Positions 25,936-63,009 are shown, numbered from the stretch's first letter. The stretch is DNA of 64,000 nt from an uncultured Myxococcales bacterium (GCA_903929795.1 CAIYWC010000064.1:1-64000), one strand, 5' to 3'. Numbers and translations: made by a program. Notes: generated by a model from the letters alone, not told the origin.

Positions 25936-26913
25936 ATGTCGCGCCACCCCGCCTGCTTGCTGACCACGCTGCGCGAGCCCGATGTGCGGCTGCGCTGGCT
26001 GGCGCGGTGGCTGCGCGAGACCGAGCCTGCGGCGGCGGTCGCCGTGCTGGAAGAGGCGGCGCAAGGGGCCGCGCTGGGCAATGTCCGCGAGCTGCACTTG
26101 ACATTTGTCCACTTGCTGCTGCAGCTGCGGCCGCGCCCGGATCTGCCCGGTGGCCCGCTGCCGCCGCCGGACCACCGACTGGTTCTGCCGGACGCGCGCG
26201 TGGCGCAGCTGATTGGTGCGGCGCATCGTCAAGGATTTCAGTGGACTGCCTGGGTGCTGCGCGAGGCGTTTCGGCCGCCGGCGCTGCTGGAAGGTCGGCT
26301 CCTGCCGCTGCAACCGAGTGTCGAGAAGATTCCGCTGGGCGTGCGCAAGGAGCGCGCACGCGTGCCCGATCCGGAGGTCGTCGCGCCGCTGCTCGCCGAT
26401 TCCACGCCGGCGGTCGTGCATATTCTCGCGGAAAATCCGCGGGTTTCGGAGGTGCACGCGCTGTTGGTCGCCACCCTGCGACCGACCCATCCGTACGCGC
26501 TCCAGGCGCTGCTACTGAATCTGCGCTGGTTGACAAATGTCAAGGTGGTGGAGGCGGTGGCGCGCAGTGACGCGGCGCCGCCTTGGCTGGTGCTCGCGCT
26601 GACGCCGCTGCTGGCCAAGCCCGTGCAGATGGCGATTGCCAAGCTGCCGCGAATCCATCCGGAAGTCCGCGAATTAATGGCGCAATGGCTCGATCTGGGC
26701 GACGTCGTCCTGGCCGCCGCGCCGCTGCGTCGCGATCCGAATCCGGGTATTTTCGCGGTCGGCGAGGGCGACCTGGCCGGCGCGCAGGACCTGGCGGAGA
26801 CTGTCGTTGTTATCGCGCCGCTCGCGGTTGATTTGGCAGCGCCCACGCCGAGGCCGCGCCCGACGCGGGTGCGCGGCAAAAGGGTCAAACGGCCGAACAC
26901 CGACAAGGGTTGA
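25936..26913 (+). CDS. Uncharacterised alpha-helical repeat protein
   Basis: Protein of 325 residues with no motif I recognise. No signal peptide is visible. Leu/Ala-rich helices repeat at about 35-40 residue intervals (LRWLARWLRETEPAAAVAVLEEA, HALLVATLRPTHPYALQALLLNL, PPWLVLALTPLLAKPVQMAIAKL), which looks like a HEAT- or TPR-like solenoid. The last 60 residues are basic and end RVRGKRVKRPNTDKG. It starts nine bases after the PEGA gene and ends 33 bases before the stop of the convergent esterase. Solenoid proteins of this kind can be scaffolds; no specific partner is visible beyond the operon. Confidence 0.6.
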   Translation: MSRHPACLLTTLREPDVRLRWLARWLRETEPAAAVAVLEEAAQGAALGNVRELHLTFVHLLLQLRPRPDLPGGPLPPPDHRLVLPDARVAQLIGAAHRQGFQWTAWVLREAFRPPALLEGRLLPLQPSVEKIPLGVRKERARVPDPEVVAPLLADSTPAVVHILAENPRVSEVHALLVATLRPTHPYALQALLLNLRWLTNVKVVEAVARSDAAPPWLVLALTPLLAKPVQMAIAKLPRIHPEVRELMAQWLDLGDVVLAAAPLRRDPNPGIFAVGEGDLAGAQDLAETVVVIAPLAVDLAAPTPRPRPTRVRGKRVKRPNTDKG

Positions 26914-26945: not shown

Positions 26946-28082
26946 CTACTCGTACACGAACCAGAGCGGCCCCGGGAACAGCCACGCGAGCGCGGATTGC
27001 TGCCGGTCGCGCCAGTTCTCCCAGTTGTGGCCGTCGCGCGCTTCGTCGTAGCGCACTTCCAGGCCGTGCGATTGCAAAAACGGGACCATGGAGCGGTTTT
27101 CATAGATCAGCGACTCGTAAGTCCCGCAGGACATATAGACTTTCTCCGCTGGTCGGCCGGGGCTCTCGCGAAATGCGTTGACGAATTGGACGACGCGGTC
27201 AAACGCCGGGCCTCGCTTGTTCTCTCCGATGTCCGTGAACGCGAAGCTCCCGCTTTGCAAGAGTAATTTTCCGAAGACGCCCGGATAACGCCAAGCAGTC
27301 GCCAGGCTCGCGACACCGCCGAAGCTCGCGCCCATCAGGCACCGCTGCGCCGGCGTGCCAAAGACCGGGTAGTTCCGCTCCATGAACGGCAGGACCTGTT
27401 CGGCGATGAACTGCGCGTGATGCGGGTCATCCGGGTACTCGTCCATACGGTTTTTTGGATGCGTCAGCGCGACGATCAGCGGCGCGACTTCCAGTCGGTG
27501 GATCAGGTTGTCGAGCACGGTTTTGAGCCGCGCATAGCGCAGATAATCGCCACCGTCGTGGACAATCAGCAGCGGATAGCGCCGCGTTTCGCGGTAGCGC
27601 GCGGGCAGGTAGACCGTCAGCGGCCGTGGACCGCCAAACGCCGTGTTGTTCAGCATCAGCTCGTGCAGCGTGCCCTGGCGGGCGTCCGGGTCGGGCAGGC
27701 ACCAATCTGGAACCTCGTAACCCTCTGCCTGGCAAACGGAATTGGCGCCAAACGGGTCGTGCGCGATGTGCGGATTCAGCGGATCGCGAATCCACTGGTT
27801 GTGGCCCGCGCGCTGGATGTCGAATTTGTACTCAAACCGCGAGCCGCGCGGCAGATCGATGGTCAAATACCACAGGTCCGTGTGCGCCAGCCGGTGGAAC
27901 GGCTGCGCGCTCGCGAGGCCGAAGACCCAGTGGCGCAGGTGCACCGCGTCGGCGTGCCCGCGCCAGACAAAAGTGACGTGCATGCCCTCGATGAGCGGAA
28001 ACCGCTGGCTGCGGATGAAGGTGTCGACGGCGTGGCTGTCGAGGCCTGCTTGGCGTTCCAGCCGGTGAATCGCGAGGATCAT
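26946..28082 (-). CDS. Fes-like alpha/beta-hydrolase with N-terminal Ig-like domain
   Basis: Putative serine esterase or peptidase of 378 residues. The N-terminal half (about 25-115) is an early-set beta domain like that of enterochelin esterase Fes and CBM48 proteins. The C-terminal half is an esterase D/Fes-type alpha/beta hydrolase: LTVYLPARYRETRRYPLLIVHDGGDYL, the nucleophile elbow GASFGG with Ser253, LLLQSGSF, and the catalytic His352 in RDGHNWENWRD. No signal peptide is visible, so it acts in the cytoplasm or an unidentified export route is used. Its ATG overlaps the TGA of the S51-like gene (ATGA), tying the two enzymes by translational coupling. In this cluster a role in hydrolysing or releasing the ligase product is inferred. 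Confidence 0.87.
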   Translation of the reverse strand: MILAIHRLERQAGLDSHAVDTFIRSQRFPLIEGMHVTFVWRGHADAVHLRHWVFGLASAQPFHRLAHTDLWYLTIDLPRGSRFEYKFDIQRAGHNQWIRDPLNPHIAHDPFGANSVCQAEGYEVPDWCLPDPDARQGTLHELMLNNTAFGGPRPLTVYLPARYRETRRYPLLIVHDGGDYLRYARLKTVLDNLIHRLEVAPLIVALTHPKNRMDEYPDDPHHAQFIAEQVLPFMERNYPVFGTPAQRCLMGASFGGVASLATAWRYPGVFGKLLLQSGSFAFTDIGENKRGPAFDRVVQFVNAFRESPGRPAEKVYMSCGTYESLIYENRSMVPFLQSHGLEVRYDEARDGHNWENWRDRQQSALAWLFPGPLWFVYE

Positions 28083-29014
28083 GCTGCCTCCGCGCTGGCC
28101 GGGACCGGAAAGCCGCTGGCGTCGAGGCGCAGCGTGCCGGGCGTGAAGTCCCAGTGGCGTCCAGCCAGACGGCCGCAGTTGCCGGCATCGAGACAGATGC
28201 AGTCGGATGGTGAAAAACGGCGTGAAAACAAGGCCATGCGTGGCACGTCGTCGAGCTTCAGCCGCGTCGTTGCGTGCGGCAAGGCGACAATGCCAGGTGC
28301 GAGGCCAAGGCCCACATCCAGAATTTCCGGATTGCCGGCGCCCTCAGGCGGCCGATCGTGAAACGCCACGACGCGGTCGGTCAGCACCATCGCGCCCGCG
28401 GACCACGCGAGAATCGGTTTGTGCGTCATCCCCGCCGCGACGTCCAGCAGTCGCATCCGGCCGATCAGCGTCGACACGTGGCCGCCGGCGATCGCCACGG
28501 CATCGCATTCCTCCAAAATCCCTTGCACTTCAGCGCGATGCTGGGCCAGTGCTCGCCGCTCGCCGGGCAACTCCTGGATCTCAAAAGCCTCGTGCACGTC
28601 GCGAATCCGCCGGAGGTGATGGGCGTCCAGGGCGCGCAATTGCTCAATGGTGTCGATGCGTTCCGGTTCAAGGAGCTCGGCCGGTCCAGCGCGCGACATC
28701 AGCACGGTCGCCGACGCCATCAGGTGGTCCAAGCGCATCCGGTAGATGTCCTGCAGCTGTCGGAGGTTGTCCTGACGGCGGCGATGTGCGGAGAATAGCT
28801 GACGATCCTGGGCGAACACGGCGTCCGTGCGGGCGTGCAGCCGCAGGTTCACAGCGCGGTTGCCAAGCGCGGCGGAGAGCTCGTCGTCCTCCGACTCGCG
28901 CTCTTGCCACCCGGCGGTGATTGTGGCGATCCGCCCGGAAAGTCCAAGCAATTTCAACTCTTCCGTCACGGTAATGACGTGCCTTTGCGGCCCTAGCACC
29001 ACGACTCTGCGCAT
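28079..29014 (-). CDS. S51/cyanophycinase-like serine peptidase or amidase
   Basis: Predicted class I glutamine-amidotransferase-like hydrolase of the S51 branch, 311 residues. The Ser nucleophile is in AWSAGA (Ser205), after the loop AIAGGHVSTL (172-181) that matches the GG-pocket of S51 enzymes, and a His follows at 247 in VALPHATTR. S51 members cut Asp- or Glu-type peptides (dipeptidase E, cyanophycinase). Residues about 60-165 are a charged helical insertion (QDNLRQLQDIYRMRL) that ordinary family members lack. The ATG at 29014 has GGATCAGG upstream and is preferred over an upstream open extension. It heads a two-gene transcript with the esterase, and faces the ATP-grasp pair across a 114-base divergent region. 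Confidence 0.8.
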   Translation of the reverse strand: MRRVVVLGPQRHVITVTEELKLLGLSGRIATITAGWQERESEDDELSAALGNRAVNLRLHARTDAVFAQDRQLFSAHRRRQDNLRQLQDIYRMRLDHLMASATVLMSRAGPAELLEPERIDTIEQLRALDAHHLRRIRDVHEAFEIQELPGERRALAQHRAEVQGILEECDAVAIAGGHVSTLIGRMRLLDVAAGMTHKPILAWSAGAMVLTDRVVAFHDRPPEGAGNPEILDVGLGLAPGIVALPHATTRLKLDDVPRMALFSRRFSPSDCICLDAGNCGRLAGRHWDFTPGTLRLDASGFPVPASAEAA

Positions 29015-29062
29015 CCTGATCCTCGCGTTCCGCTCAGCCCGCCTGGCCGACCCCTGTGTTCT

Positions 29063-29091
29063 TTGGCCGTCGCGCCAGACTGTGCCAGACT
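29063..29091 (+). promoter_or_regulatory. Candidate promoter of the ATP-grasp pair
   Basis: TTGGCC, a 17-base spacer and CAGACT, 37 bases before the ATG at 29129. The -10 is poor against the usual consensus but identical to that of the GT-C-like gene (44717-44745). GCCAGACT is directly repeated at 29074-29091, overlapping the -10. Confidence 0.35.
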
Positions 29092-29128
29092 CGGCGCCGG
29101 AGGGCACCTCGTCTTAGCTGGAGTTCAC

Positions 29129-30349
29129 ATGCATGTCATTCTGGTCGCGCCACATTTTCCCGCCAACCAGCGGCAGTTCGCCCGGGCGCTCAAGTCCGTG
29201 GGCGCGTTCGTCACCGGCATCGGCGAGGCCGCGCCGCAGCACTTGGATGGCGAATTGCGTTCCTGGCTGGGTGCTTACGAGCAAGTGCCGTCCGTGTGCG
29301 ACGATGACGCGATGCTGCACGCCGTCCGCAGGATCCAAGCGCGCGGTTGGGTCGATCGGCTGGAGACGACCGTCGAGGCCCATATCCTGACGTCCGCAAG
29401 GGTCCGCGAACGCACGGGAATTCCGGGGCTGACGGTGCAACAGGCCATCCTGTGCCGCGACAAACCGACGATGAAGGATTTTCTGCGCGACAAGGGGATC
29501 GCGACGGCAGCCTCTGGGGCCGCGTCCACCTTGGTGGAAGTACAGACGTTTATTCAGCGGGTCGGCTATCCGATCGTGCTCAAGCCGCGCGCGGGCGCGG
29601 GTGCGCAGGACACGATAAAGGTTGACGGCGACGCTGATCTGCCCGCGGCTGCGCGGACGATGCAGTTGGACCGCGGCGGCTCCGTGGCGGTGGAGGAGTT
29701 CATCGAGGGCCACGAAGGATTTTACGACACGGTGACGATCGATGGCCAGGTGCAGCACGAGTTCATTTCGCACTACTACCCGAACGTGCTGGACGCGATG
29801 CGGACGCGGGCGGTCTCGCCGTATATCATCACGACAAACCGCGTCAATGCGCCGGGTTACGATGAAGTGAAGAAGATGGGCCGTGACGTCATCACCGCGA
29901 TGGGTCTGGGGACGACGGCGACGCACATGGAGTGGTTCTTCGGGCCAAAAGGCTTGAAATTTGGGGAGATCGGTGCGCGGCCACCGGGCGTATGCACCTG
30001 GGATTTGTACTCCGCGGCGAACGGCATGGACGTCTACCGCGAGTGGGCTGCGGCGATTGCGCTCGGCCGCGTGTTCGACAAGCCGAGCCGGCAATACGCC
30101 GCTGGATTGATCGCGCTGCGTCCGGAGCGCGACGGCCACATCGTCGGCTATGAAGGCGCGGATCTGCTGCAAAAACAGCTAGGTCAGTGGGTGATCGACG
30201 CGTACCTGCCGCCAGCGGGGACGCGCACGCAGCCGGTGGAGGCGGGCTACATGGCCAACGCCTGGGTGCGGATGCACCACCCGGATTACGACAAGCTGCG
30301 GGAAATGCTGGAGTATGTCGGGCGCACGCTGCGGGTACTGGCGCGCTAG
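29129..30349 (+). CDS. ATP-grasp carboxylate-amine ligase, first of pair
   Basis: Predicted ligase of 406 residues that would activate a carboxylate as an acylphosphate and join it to an amine. An N-terminal PurK-like domain (HVILVAPHFPANQRQF, to about 100) is followed by the ATP-grasp fold: the lysine strand YPIVLKPRAGAGAQDT (about 151-166), VEEFIEG (about 190), and the Mg2+-binding end GLGTTATHMEWFF and FGEIGARPPGV. A Gly-rich loop GAGAQDT is present. The start is the ATG at 29129, with GGAG seven bases upstream. It shares architecture and the HMEWF and GE-AR-PG blocks with its neighbour and with the gene at 61786. Substrate unknown. Confidence 0.88.
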   Translation: MHVILVAPHFPANQRQFARALKSVGAFVTGIGEAAPQHLDGELRSWLGAYEQVPSVCDDDAMLHAVRRIQARGWVDRLETTVEAHILTSARVRERTGIPGLTVQQAILCRDKPTMKDFLRDKGIATAASGAASTLVEVQTFIQRVGYPIVLKPRAGAGAQDTIKVDGDADLPAAARTMQLDRGGSVAVEEFIEGHEGFYDTVTIDGQVQHEFISHYYPNVLDAMRTRAVSPYIITTNRVNAPGYDEVKKMGRDVITAMGLGTTATHMEWFFGPKGLKFGEIGARPPGVCTWDLYSAANGMDVYREWAAAIALGRVFDKPSRQYAAGLIALRPERDGHIVGYEGADLLQKQLGQWVIDAYLPPAGTRTQPVEAGYMANAWVRMHHPDYDKLREMLEYVGRTLRVLAR

Positions 30350-30358
30350 GGGCCGTTC

Positions 30359-31576
30359 ATGAAAGTTGTGTTCATTTCTCCGCATTTTCCTTATGAAATG
30401 CCGCGGTTTACCCGCGGTCTCGCTGAAGTTGGCGCGCAGGTTTACGGCCTCGGCGATGTGCCGCTGGAGCAGATTCCGGACGACACCAAGCGCTGGCTGA
30501 CCGACTACATCCACGTGCCGAGCCTCGGCGACGAGGAGAGCGTCCTGCGGCATGCGCTGTCGGCGCTGCGGCGGCTGCAGCCGGACCGCATCGAGTGCCT
30601 GTGGGAGGTCGGCGTTGAACTGGCGGCGCGGCTGCGCGCGGAGCTGGGGATTGCCGGGCTGAGTCCTGAAAATGCCCGTGATTTTCGCGACAAAGACCGC
30701 ATGAAGGCGCGGCTGGACCGGGCGGGTCTGCGGGTTCCGCGCCACTATCGCGTCGTGTCGCTGGCTGATCTGCAGCACGCCGTGAAATACATCGGCTTTC
30801 CGCTGATCATCAAGCCGATCGACGGCGCGGGCACGCGTGACACCTTCAAGCTGTCGAACGACGCGGACTTGCAGGCAATTTTGCCGCAGATCAAGCACTT
30901 GCCGGAGATGATCGCCGAAGAATTCATCGAAGGCGAAGAATTCACGTTTGATACCGTGTGCATTGAGGGCGTGCCGGTCTTCGAGTCGATCGCGCAGTAC
31001 CACCCGAATCCGCTGCAATCGCGGACGCTGGAATGGATCAGCCCGGCGCAAATTGTCTTGCGAGATCCATATATTGCGCCGCTGGCGGACGCGGTAACAT
31101 TCGGCCGCAACGTGCTCGGGGCGATGGGCACGGGCACGGGATTCACGCACATGGAGTGGTTTCGCAAGCCCAACGGTGAAGTTGTTTTTGGCGAGATCGC
31201 CGCCCGCGCGCCGGGCGGACGGCTCGTCGATCAGATGAATTATGCAAATGATTTCAATGTGTACCGGGAGTGGGCGCGCGCTGTTTGCTGGCACACCTTC
31301 GAGCAGACTCCGCAGCGGCGGTACCACGTCGCCGCCGTGTTCAAGCGAGCGCAGGGGCAGGGCCGCGTCACGCGTATCGAGGGTCTGGAGGAAGTGAGGC
31401 GCGAACTCGACCCGGCGCTCGTCGTCGAGGAGCTCTTGCCCGTCGGCACGCCGCGGCGCGACTGGAAACAGACGCTGCTTGGCGATGGGGTCCTCATCGC
31501 GCGACACCCCGACCACGATACGATGCTGCGGATCATGGGCCGGCTGGTGACGGGGATCCGTATGTTCGCCGAGTAA
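30359..31576 (+). CDS. ATP-grasp carboxylate-amine ligase, second of pair
   Basis: Paralogue of the upstream ligase, 405 residues, nine bases downstream and clearly cotranscribed. It opens KVVFISPHFPYEMPRF and carries FRDKDRMKARLDRAGL, the nucleotide lysine strand FPLIIKPIDGAGTRDT, AEEFIEGEEF and GTGFTHMEWF with FGEIAARAPGG. The acidic and Arg/Gly residues expected for ATP and Mg2+ binding are present, so both copies look active. Divergence between the two across the substrate-side region (residues 200-300) suggests different substrates rather than simple redundancy, as in two-step peptide assembly. Confidence 0.88.
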   Translation: MKVVFISPHFPYEMPRFTRGLAEVGAQVYGLGDVPLEQIPDDTKRWLTDYIHVPSLGDEESVLRHALSALRRLQPDRIECLWEVGVELAARLRAELGIAGLSPENARDFRDKDRMKARLDRAGLRVPRHYRVVSLADLQHAVKYIGFPLIIKPIDGAGTRDTFKLSNDADLQAILPQIKHLPEMIAEEFIEGEEFTFDTVCIEGVPVFESIAQYHPNPLQSRTLEWISPAQIVLRDPYIAPLADAVTFGRNVLGAMGTGTGFTHMEWFRKPNGEVVFGEIAARAPGGRLVDQMNYANDFNVYREWARAVCWHTFEQTPQRRYHVAAVFKRAQGQGRVTRIEGLEEVRRELDPALVVEELLPVGTPRRDWKQTLLGDGVLIARHPDHDTMLRIMGRLVTGIRMFAE

Positions 31577-36141: not shown

Positions 36142-37248
36142 ATGGCGCGCGATTTGACCCTGGGCGTGGAAGAAGAATTCCAAATCATCGACCCGGAGAC
36201 CCGGGAGCTGAAGAACGTCATCTCCGAGATGATTGAGTCGCAGACGCATCTGGATGAAATCACGCTGCAACCGGAGCTGCACCAGTCGGTGGTGGAAGTG
36301 GCGACCGGCATCTGTGAGGACATCCACGCGGTGCGGCGCGACGTGATCAAGAACCGGCGGCAGGCGGCGCTGATCGCCGAGCGAGTGGGCGTGAAGATCG
36401 CGGCGGCGTCGACGCACCCGTTTTCGCTGTGGGAACATCAGGATATCAGCGACAAGGAGCGCTACATCCAGAGCGTCGAGGAGATGCAGGACGCGGCGCG
36501 CGGCAACCTGATTTTCGGCCTGCACGTGCACGTGGGCATCGAGGACAAGGAGCTGGCGATCGACGTCTACAACCAGGCGCGCTACTTCCTGCCGCACCTC
36601 CTGGCGCTGTCCGCGAGCTCGCCGTTCTTCAATGGCCGCAAGACCGGCATGGCATCGTCGCGCACCTTGATTTTCAAGCGCTTGCCGCGCACCGGCATCC
36701 CCGAGCGGTTCTTCAGCTACGCGGAATTCGAGTCGTTCATCAACACGCTCGTCGCCACCGGCTGCATTGACAACGGCCGCCGCGTCTGGTGGGACCTGCG
36801 CCCGCATCCGACCTATTCCACTTTGGAATTCCGCATTTGCGACCTCCCGACGCTGGTTGACGACGTCGTCGCCATCGCCGGCCTTGTGCAGGCGATCTGC
36901 GCCAAGATGATCCGCCTGCGCAAGCTGAACTTGTCGTTCAACCCGTACCGCGTCGGCATGCTGGAAGAGAACAAATGGCGGGCGGCGCGCTACGGCGTCA
37001 AGGGCAAGCTGATCGACTGGGGCAAGAAACAGGAGATTCCGTTCAGCGATCTGGCGGAACAACTGATTGAATTTGTGGATGAAGTGCTCGATGAGCTCGG
37101 TTCGCGCCAGGAGGTCGAGCATATTCTGACCATCGTCAAGCGCGGCACATCGGCGGACCGCCAGCTGGAAGTGTTTGAACGCACTGGCGGCGACTTGAAG
37201 GCCGTTGTGGATTCGATTCTGGAAGAGACCATGCGCGGCGTCAGCTGA
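36142..37248 (+). CDS. YbdK-type carboxylate-amine ligase (glutamate-cysteine ligase 2 family)
   Basis: Predicted ATP-dependent ligase of 368 residues in the GCS2/COG2170-like group. It carries LGVEEEFQIIDPETREL at the N-terminus with the Glu-rich ATP/metal motif, then THPFSLWEHQ, the metal-site FGLHVHVGI near 130, RVWWDLRPHPTYSTLEFRICD near 220, and NKWRAARYGVKG near 276. The E. coli member has only weak glutamate-cysteine ligase activity in vitro, so substrate assignment is open. It has its own promoter and Shine-Dalgarno sequence. Its presence 4.5 kb from two ATP-grasp ligases is relevant, because such ligase types recur together in predicted small-peptide pathways. Confidence 0.92.
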   Translation: MARDLTLGVEEEFQIIDPETRELKNVISEMIESQTHLDEITLQPELHQSVVEVATGICEDIHAVRRDVIKNRRQAALIAERVGVKIAAASTHPFSLWEHQDISDKERYIQSVEEMQDAARGNLIFGLHVHVGIEDKELAIDVYNQARYFLPHLLALSASSPFFNGRKTGMASSRTLIFKRLPRTGIPERFFSYAEFESFINTLVATGCIDNGRRVWWDLRPHPTYSTLEFRICDLPTLVDDVVAIAGLVQAICAKMIRLRKLNLSFNPYRVGMLEENKWRAARYGVKGKLIDWGKKQEIPFSDLAEQLIEFVDEVLDELGSRQEVEHILTIVKRGTSADRQLEVFERTGGDLKAVVDSILEETMRGVS

Positions 37249-61785: not shown

Positions 61786-63009
61786 ATGAGCGTCGCCGTG
61801 CTTGTCGCCCCGTATTTTCAGGAAAACACGCTGCGCTACCTCGAAGCGCTGGCAGATCTGCCGGGTGTGCGCGCGGTGGTGGTTTCCAGCGACCCGGCCG
61901 AGCGGCTGCCGCCCGAACTGTTCAAGCGCCTTGCTGGGCATTTTCGCGTGGCAAATTGCATGGATGGCGGCCAGCTGGCGCAGGCGTGCAAAACGATCGG
62001 TCGCTCGGTCGGGCCGGTCAAACGGCTGCTGGGCGTGCTGGAGCAGCTGCAGGTGCCGCTGGCGGAAGCTCGCGAGATTGTGGGTATTCCTGGGATGCAC
62101 GCCCGTGCGGCCCGCAACTTTCGGGACAAGGCGCAGATGAAGAAAGTGCTGCGCGAGGCGGGGCTGCCCTGCGCGCGCAGCCGGCTGATTGAGAACGACG
62201 AAGACGCTTGGAAGCTCACGGAAGAAGTGGGTTTTCCGATCATCGTCAAGCCCGTGGACGGCCTGGGATCGCGCGCAACGTGGCGGATCGCCAACGAAGT
62301 CGAGCTTCGCAACGCCTTGAAGTCGCTGAAGCCGAGCCTGGATCGGCCGCTGCAGGGCGAGGAATTCGTGCTGGGCAGCGAGCACACTTGCGAGACGGTG
62401 ACCGTGCAGGGGCGACCGGTCTGGCATTCCGGCACGCACTACTTGCCGGGGCCGCTGGAAGTGCTTGAAAATCCGTGGATTCAGTACTGCGTGCTGTTGC
62501 CGCGCGAGGCGGATCTGCCGATGTTTCGCGATTTTTGGCCGATCAACACCGCGGCGCTGACCGCGCTGGGGATGGAGACCGGGCTGAGTCACATGGAATG
62601 GTTCGTGCGGCGCGACGGGACGCCGTGCATTTCCGAGGTGGGTGCGCGGCCGCCGGGTGTGCAGATCATGCCGCTGATGTCGCTGGCGCACGAGACCGAC
62701 ATGGTGGCGGACTGGGTGAAGCTGATGGTGAAAGGCGAATTCGAGGGGCCCGAGCGCAAGTGGTCAGTCGGCGCGGCGTTTCTGCGCGGGCAGGGCGCAG
62801 GCAAGCGCGTCAAGGGCGTGTATGGCCTGGAGCGCGCGGACGATTTGATGGGGCAATACGTGGTGGAAAAATCCCTGCCGCGCGTTGGGCAGGCGCGCGC
62901 CGATGGCTACGAAGGCGAGGGCTGGGTGATCGTCAAGGCGCCTGACACCGCGACGTGCCGGCAGGCGCTCAAGGACCTCGTGACGCGCGTGCGCGTGGAG
63001 TTGGAGTAG
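61786..63009 (+). CDS. ATP-grasp carboxylate-amine ligase, third paralogue
   Basis: Predicted ligase of 407 residues and a member of the same subfamily as the pair at 29129-31576. It shares the N-terminal VAVLVAPYFQENTLRYLEAL, NFRDKAQMKKVLREAGL, the ATP-binding strand FPIIVKPVDGLGSRAT, and the C-terminal GMETGLSHMEWF with SEVGARPPGV. Near 220 it differs (WHSGTHYLPGPLEV), which implies a separate substrate. GGAGAGA precedes the ATG. No second ligase or hydrolase is adjacent, unlike at the main cluster. The region in front holds repeat copy C and its own likely promoter. Confidence 0.88.
   Translation: MSVAVLVAPYFQENTLRYLEALADLPGVRAVVVSSDPAERLPPELFKRLAGHFRVANCMDGGQLAQACKTIGRSVGPVKRLLGVLEQLQVPLAEAREIVGIPGMHARAARNFRDKAQMKKVLREAGLPCARSRLIENDEDAWKLTEEVGFPIIVKPVDGLGSRATWRIANEVELRNALKSLKPSLDRPLQGEEFVLGSEHTCETVTVQGRPVWHSGTHYLPGPLEVLENPWIQYCVLLPREADLPMFRDFWPINTAALTALGMETGLSHMEWFVRRDGTPCISEVGARPPGVQIMPLMSLAHETDMVADWVKLMVKGEFEGPERKWSVGAAFLRGQGAGKRVKGVYGLERADDLMGQYVVEKSLPRVGQARADGYEGEGWVIVKAPDTATCRQALKDLVTRVRVELE

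Follow-up and report, generated by a model that had tools for sequence, protein, structure and literature searches.

A conserved, co-inherited set of ATP-grasp ligase and hydrolase genes in Myxococcota and other phyla, possibly tied to alpha-glucan metabolism

A stretch of 64,000 nucleotides from an uncultured Myxococcales bacterium (GCA_903929795.1 CAIYWC010000064.1:1-64000), referred to here as the window, carries four adjacent genes that encode an esterase (EST1), an S51-like protein and two ATP-grasp ligases (AGA and AGB). We observed that these genes are part of a conserved and co-inherited multi-gene unit, which is kept and lost together and is clustered in many phyla. The unit consists of about seven enzymes rather than four, namely ATP-grasp proteins of three clades within a single family, a fourth and more distant ATP-grasp protein, two esterases and the S51-like protein. 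The initial annotation of the window had proposed a functional unit of four genes; the conserved unit held up and its size did not, as about seven families recur, and the link to glycogen synthase had been overlooked. We put the chances at slightly better than even that the four genes belong to a conserved multi-enzyme pathway, in which the ligation of amides (or esters) would proceed step by step alongside dedicated hydrolases and which may be connected with alpha-glucan metabolism.

Conservation and co-inheritance of the gene set

Orthologues of the S51-like protein were found in 22 of the 53 genomes searched, counting the window's own. Three genomes of the same genus (L046-L048) share the flanking genes with the window as well. 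In a fourth genome of the genus (L045) and in the family's other genera, ligA, TrkA and a DEAD helicase no longer flank the genes and EST1, S51, AGA and AGB are kept, in many cases still in the divergent layout. More distant members of the class (L037, L060 and L063) carry the genes on one strand in the order AGA-S51-EST1, in some with overlaps of the ATGA type. Because relatives with differing flanks keep the four genes as a group, their linkage is not due to chance, and the association put forward in the initial annotation survives a comparison with related genomes.

The wider distribution was examined through relatives of AGA, using one genome per species, which gave at least 568. The best 80 of these are about 59-92% identical to the window AGA, with identity of ~60% across phyla. 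They come from Myxococcota, Acidobacteriota, Planctomycetota, Candidatus Eisenbacteria, metagenome-assembled genomes (MAGs) of Gammaproteobacteria and one Acidimicrobiia MAG, and include the isolates Nannocystis, Paraliomyxa miuraensis and Sulfidibacter corallicola. Recurrent families were defined by clustering open reading frames (ORFs) and then discarding manually the many antisense shadow families that this produced. The 80 loci have S51 within ~10 kb of AGA in 59 cases, EST1 in 53, AGF in 35, AGD in 35, AGB in 32, glycogen synthase (GlgA) in 30, ES2 in 27 and AGE in 23; the 80 loci were chosen by similarity to the window AGA, so these frequencies do not describe a random sample. AGF is an ATP-grasp protein of ~420 residues with weak similarity to D-Ala ligase, and ES2 is a second, small esterase, a hydrolase of 245 residues (PF00756). 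Overlaps that point to translational coupling are found in several gene pairs, the tightest being S51>EST1 (55/63), AGF>ES2 (17/30) and AGD>AGE (11/20); GlgA and AGA overlap in 3/17 and AGA and S51 in a few loci, with some contigs represented twice in these counts. The window's own genome has AGF, ES2 and AGD together on another contig (C208), with AGE 23 kb further on; elsewhere AGF, ES2 and AGD join the same cluster as S51, EST1 and AGA, and the arrangement spans at least five phyla.

The strongest evidence for a common fate comes from a phyletic profile of 143 genomes of the phylum Myxococcota that are at least 90% complete, in which S51 was counted as present when full-length. S51 occurs in 47 of these, EST1 in the identical 47, AGA in 48 and AGF in 46. 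S51, AGA and AGF are all present in 46 genomes and all absent from 95, a co-occurrence with a Fisher P < 1e-34, although kinship among the genomes makes this figure overstate their independence. The joint presence of EST1 and S51 also holds where the two lie on separate contigs (G010, G012, G016 and G018). Homologues of ES2 at E 1e-30 were found in 54 of the 143 genomes, with paralogues among them. Two genomes that have no full-length orthologues of S51 and EST1 (G057 and G145) carry divergent AGF-like and ES2-like genes side by side, and for this reason AGF-ES2 may be a separate module of its own.

In a collection of plasmids there was no match to S51 or to AGF, and AGA and ES2 found distant relatives only, about 25-37% identical. 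Among these, Sinorhizobium and Peptoclostridium replicons (L165 and L166) carry distant AGA-like and ES2-like hydrolase genes as adjacent pairs, and in Pararhizobium (L168) an ATP-grasp gene adjoins an unnamed gene of similar size. It is possible that these arrangements are a simpler relative of the system.

Predicted activities of the ligases and hydrolases

Pfam identifies ATP-grasp domains in both AGA and AGB, each with a borderline score. The predicted structure of AGA (predicted local distance difference test, pLDDT, 86.8) has the ligase RizA (4wd3) as its top fold match (E = 2.1e-32), followed by other L-amino-acid ligases, and 4wd3 is also the closest PDB sequence for both proteins. The invariant residues are K112, K152, E268, E280 and R284 in AGA and K112, K152, E266, E279 and R283 in AGB, to which putative ATP-binding and Mg roles were assigned by the ATP-grasp pattern. 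Both ligases share the predicted overall fold and the conserved ATP/Mg residues with the L-amino-acid ligases (RizA 4wd3, BL00235 3vot and BacD/YwfE 3vmm/3wnz). They differ from these in their identity of ~21%, in a Mg site of the form Glu...Glu-x-x-x-Arg without Asn, and in that several paralogous ligases share one system with S51 and esterases. The curated BacD equivalog model gave 30.3 and 33.7 bits for the ligases against a cut-off of 850. In a quick tree of the ATP-grasp proteins, with support from the Shimodaira-Hasegawa-like approximate likelihood ratio test (SH-aLRT) only, AGA forms one clade, AGB and its sister AGE a second, and AGD together with AGC a third. The fold predicted for AGA, the conserved residues and the coupled hydrolases agree with the earlier proposal of ATP-grasp ligases working alongside hydrolases. 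Neither ligase has lost its predicted ATP-binding or Mg residues, and the proposal stands on this count as well. On the basis of fold and conservation we infer, with fair confidence, ATP-grasp ligation accompanied by dedicated hydrolysis.

The S51-like protein matches Pfam Peptidase_S51 (PF03575) with E = 9.9e-5 and 22.5 bits, just below the cut-off of 23.9. Its AlphaFold model (pLDDT 89) contains long helices at residues 71-107, 112-148 and 154-169, a stretch over which the orthologues can be aligned; this bears out the unusual helical insertion noticed at the outset. The nearest folds to the model are cyanophycinase 3en0 and peptidase E (E ~1e-6). The recognisable motifs contain Ser205 (WSAGA), His247 (LPH) and the pair His219-Asp220; Ser205 is present in 78/78 homologues and His247 in 70/78, the remainder having Q, S, D, N or E. 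The characterised S51 dipeptidase Orf2 of Streptomyces uses the triad S134-H170-D198 and also needs Asp147 (PMC11078827). The spacing in the window protein is similar, with 42 residues between Ser205 and His247 against 36 in Orf2, and with Asp220 lying 15 residues after the serine against 13 for Asp147. Like cyanophycinase and peptidase E (3en0 and 6a4r), the protein has the S51 fold and a serine in a nucleophile elbow preceded by Gly-Gly. Unlike them, it carries the insertion of ~100 residues, scores below the Pfam cut-off and has homologues in which the histidine is lost.

We also considered whether the window S51 protein is the cyanophycinase of this genome, and rejected this. The protein matches none of the NCBIfam models, including that for cyanophycinase (TIGR02069), and the genome encodes a curated cyanophycinase on contig C137 (L162:1405-2280) that scores 259 bits to the same model. 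A curated cyanophycin synthetase (CphA; 1137 bits) lies on contig C70 (L146/L154, G000), where a second Mur-ligase-like match adjoins it. Of the original S51/cyanophycinase-like label, the S51 fold stands and the identity as cyanophycinase does not. Across the Myxococcota genomes CphA follows S51 only loosely, being present in 30 of the 47 with S51, leaving 17 that lack it, and in 13 of the 96 without S51.

EST1 contains an Esterase domain (1.8e-25) behind an Enterochelin_N domain (1.5e-6), a combination found in 12/12 orthologues, and Ser253, Asp350 and His352 are near-invariant and lie in the expected catalytic region. The N-terminal domain also gives weak matches to CBM20 in 7/12 orthologues and to CBM48 in 5/12, and a glucoamylase starch-binding domain is among the PDB matches (E = 9e-4). 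The closest PDB sequence is a ferulic acid esterase, which is a carbohydrate esterase, and the score against the enterochelin esterase equivalog is 97.3 bits, far below its cut-off of 222. The description of EST1 as Fes-like is right for its domains and probably does not extend to a role as siderophore esterase. In domain order and in its Ser-Asp-His hydrolase domain EST1 resembles the CE1-type carbohydrate esterases with an N-terminal CBM48 (7b5v and 8bbp) and the Fes type (2b20), from which it differs in its coupling to an S51-like gene and its lack of any xylan or siderophore context. On these comparisons it looks less like a siderophore esterase than like a carbohydrate esterase whose N-domain resembles starch-binding modules.

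Features of the locus

All four ORFs are open and intact, and the places, the ATGA overlap, the nine-base gap and the 114-base divergent spacer described in the initial annotation were confirmed (Table 1). The start of EST1 and the stop of S51 overlap at 28079-28082 (ATGA, minus strand), and AGA and AGB are separated by the bases 30350-30358. The spacer length assumes that the S51 gene begins at the ATG at 29014, the start used by the orthologues of the same genus; a longer alternative starts at a GTG at 29107. The half of the spacer adjoining AGA is strongly conserved in five genomes of the genus, with a block (GTTCTTTGGCC...CAGACTGTGCCAGACT) and a repeated CAGACT, a possible regulatory site. 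A scan of the spacer for promoters and terminators gave nothing, including no sigma-70-like promoter.

Three further ORFs lie in the same window. AGC is ~30 kb away from the four-gene cluster. An ORF resembling a carboxylate-amine ligase is situated 4.6 kb from AGB and outside the recurrent gene set, and upstream of the cluster is an ORF seen only in loci of the same genus.

Table 1. Positions of the cluster genes and of other features in the window
Feature	Position	Strand	Basis
ORF of 325 aa, without family match	25936..26913		
EST1: alpha/beta-hydrolase esterase (PF00756) with Enterochelin_N / CBM20-CBM48-like N-domain	26946..28082	-	Pfam, conservation, co-occurrence with S51
S51-like Ser hydrolase-fold protein, 311 aa, helical insertion ~71-169	28079..29014	-	Pfam, model, homologues
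Divergent spacer, 114 bases	29015..29128	.	AGA-side half carries conserved block
AGA: ATP-grasp ligase, predicted L-amino-acid-ligase fold	29129..30349	+	Pfam, model, invariant residues
AGB: second ATP-grasp ligase, sister clade of AGE	30359..31576	+	Pfam, tree, invariant residues
ORF with GCS2/YbdK-type carboxylate-amine ligase look	36142..37248		Start of protein (LTLGVEEEFQI)
AGC: third ATP-grasp of AGA/AGB family (AGD/AGC clade), unlinked to the four genes	61786..63009	+	

Possible roles of the pathway

The pathway that we favour would consist of a core of S51, EST1 and AGA, joined by AGF, ES2 and AGD and by either AGB or AGE. By analogy with the L-amino-acid ligases, the ATP-grasp enzymes would convert a carboxylate to an acyl phosphate and join this to an amine (or hydroxyl), and each ligase paralogue may add a different unit. 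The two serine esterases and the S51-like protein would then cut, transfer or recycle the product, and the coupling of the S51 and EST1 genes suggests that their products could act in successive steps on one substrate. A peptide-like metabolite, as inferred in the initial annotation, may be what the system makes.

A role in alpha-glucan metabolism is a weaker inference, in which the pathway might decorate glucan or make a reserve compound or signal produced alongside glycogen. The GlgA genes counted above, which lie within 10 kb of AGA and at times overlap it, encode proteins with ordinary glycogen synthase scores, and two Acidobacteriota clusters (L100 and L109) also hold GlgC, a debranching-type GH13, MalQ and glucan phosphorylase. 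The weak starch-binding matches in the N-domain of EST1 point the same way. Among the Myxococcota, GlgA is found in 46/46 genomes with the system against 65/97 without it; in 12 of the 46 it is no more than 10 kb from AGA, and several of these genomes carry a second GlgA elsewhere. More specifically, the ATP-grasp ligases and paired esterases might attach and remove amino-acyl or peptidyl groups on glycogen or on an alpha-glucan-linked carrier, in Myxococcota, Acidobacteriota and Planctomycetota, which we regard as rather unlikely.

Several observations weigh against the favoured pathway or its tie to glucan. The sequence does not reveal the specificity of the ligases, and the loss of His247 in some S51 homologues suggests that hydrolase activity may not be universal among them. 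EST1 matches CBM20 and CBM48 weakly, with 0.0027 and 0.0061 at best, and Enterochelin_N, which its N-domain matches best, does not belong to the glucan modules. GlgA is unlinked to the cluster in the genome of the window, and in the window's own family it lies on another contig, so the glucan link could reflect a habit of neighbourhood and not function. There are also no glycogen genes beside the Sinorhizobium and Peptoclostridium pairs, so the pairing of ligase with hydrolase may predate its recruitment to glucan.

One rival explanation is a stand-alone nonribosomal oligopeptide or osmolyte pathway, in which the ligases build a peptide-like metabolite, the hydrolases trim or recycle it and the glycogen genes are incidental. 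We consider this possible, if on the doubtful side. The L-amino-acid-ligase fold predicted for AGA, the presence of four ATP-grasp groups within one system, the pairs of ATP-grasp and hydrolase genes found elsewhere without glycogen genes and the absence of a nearby glycogen gene from the window cluster would all fit it. However, the GlgA linkage recurs in several phyla, GlgA is never missing from the Myxococcota genomes that have the system, and the N-domain of EST1 is starch-binding-like.

Much less probable, in our estimate, is a reserve of the cyanophycin type, with S51 as cyanophycinase and the ligases making a related Asp-containing polymer. The nearest folds of S51, the curated synthetase in the genome and the enrichment of CphA among S51-positive genomes point towards it, but these are outweighed by the failure of S51 to match any NCBIfam model while the C137 protein does, by the separate contig of CphA and its absence from 17 S51-positive genomes, and by the helical insertion, which the canonical enzyme lacks. 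A siderophore system, with EST1 as a true enterochelin esterase acting on a catecholate or similar product, we judge very improbable: the domains of EST1 and its 97.3 bits would suit this role, but the score falls short of the curated cut-off, the nearest PDB sequence is the ferulic acid esterase, and no siderophore gene is among the recurrent families identified in the 80 loci. We give least credence of all to the idea that the genes do not act jointly and are neighbours by chance or through a recent arrangement specific to the family. In two genera of the same family (g7 and g9) EST1 does not adjoin S51, but both still carry it elsewhere in the genome, EST1 matches the presence of S51 in 47/47 genomes, and the phyletic profile strongly disfavours this explanation.

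Text searches of the literature found no published description of this gene set, with the key 2009 survey of amidoligase neighbourhoods lying outside their coverage. Iyer and colleagues are said to have predicted in that year, by comparative genomics, amidoligase/peptidase neighbourhoods in which ATP-grasp ligases are linked with peptidases of several folds, and the present system shares this general theme of ATP-grasp and peptidase. The roughly seven enzyme families described here have predictable chemistry, co-occur almost perfectly and recur in at least five phyla, including in the cultured Nannocystis, Paraliomyxa and Sulfidibacter, and such a profile usually signals a real pathway. Should the glucan link prove true, glycogen would be modified in a new way, or a reserve compound would be made in parallel with it, and amino-acyl or peptidyl groups on glucan would join carbon and nitrogen reserves covalently. 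Should it prove false, the system would still be a new multi-ligase amide pathway, directly testable in a culturable myxobacterium.

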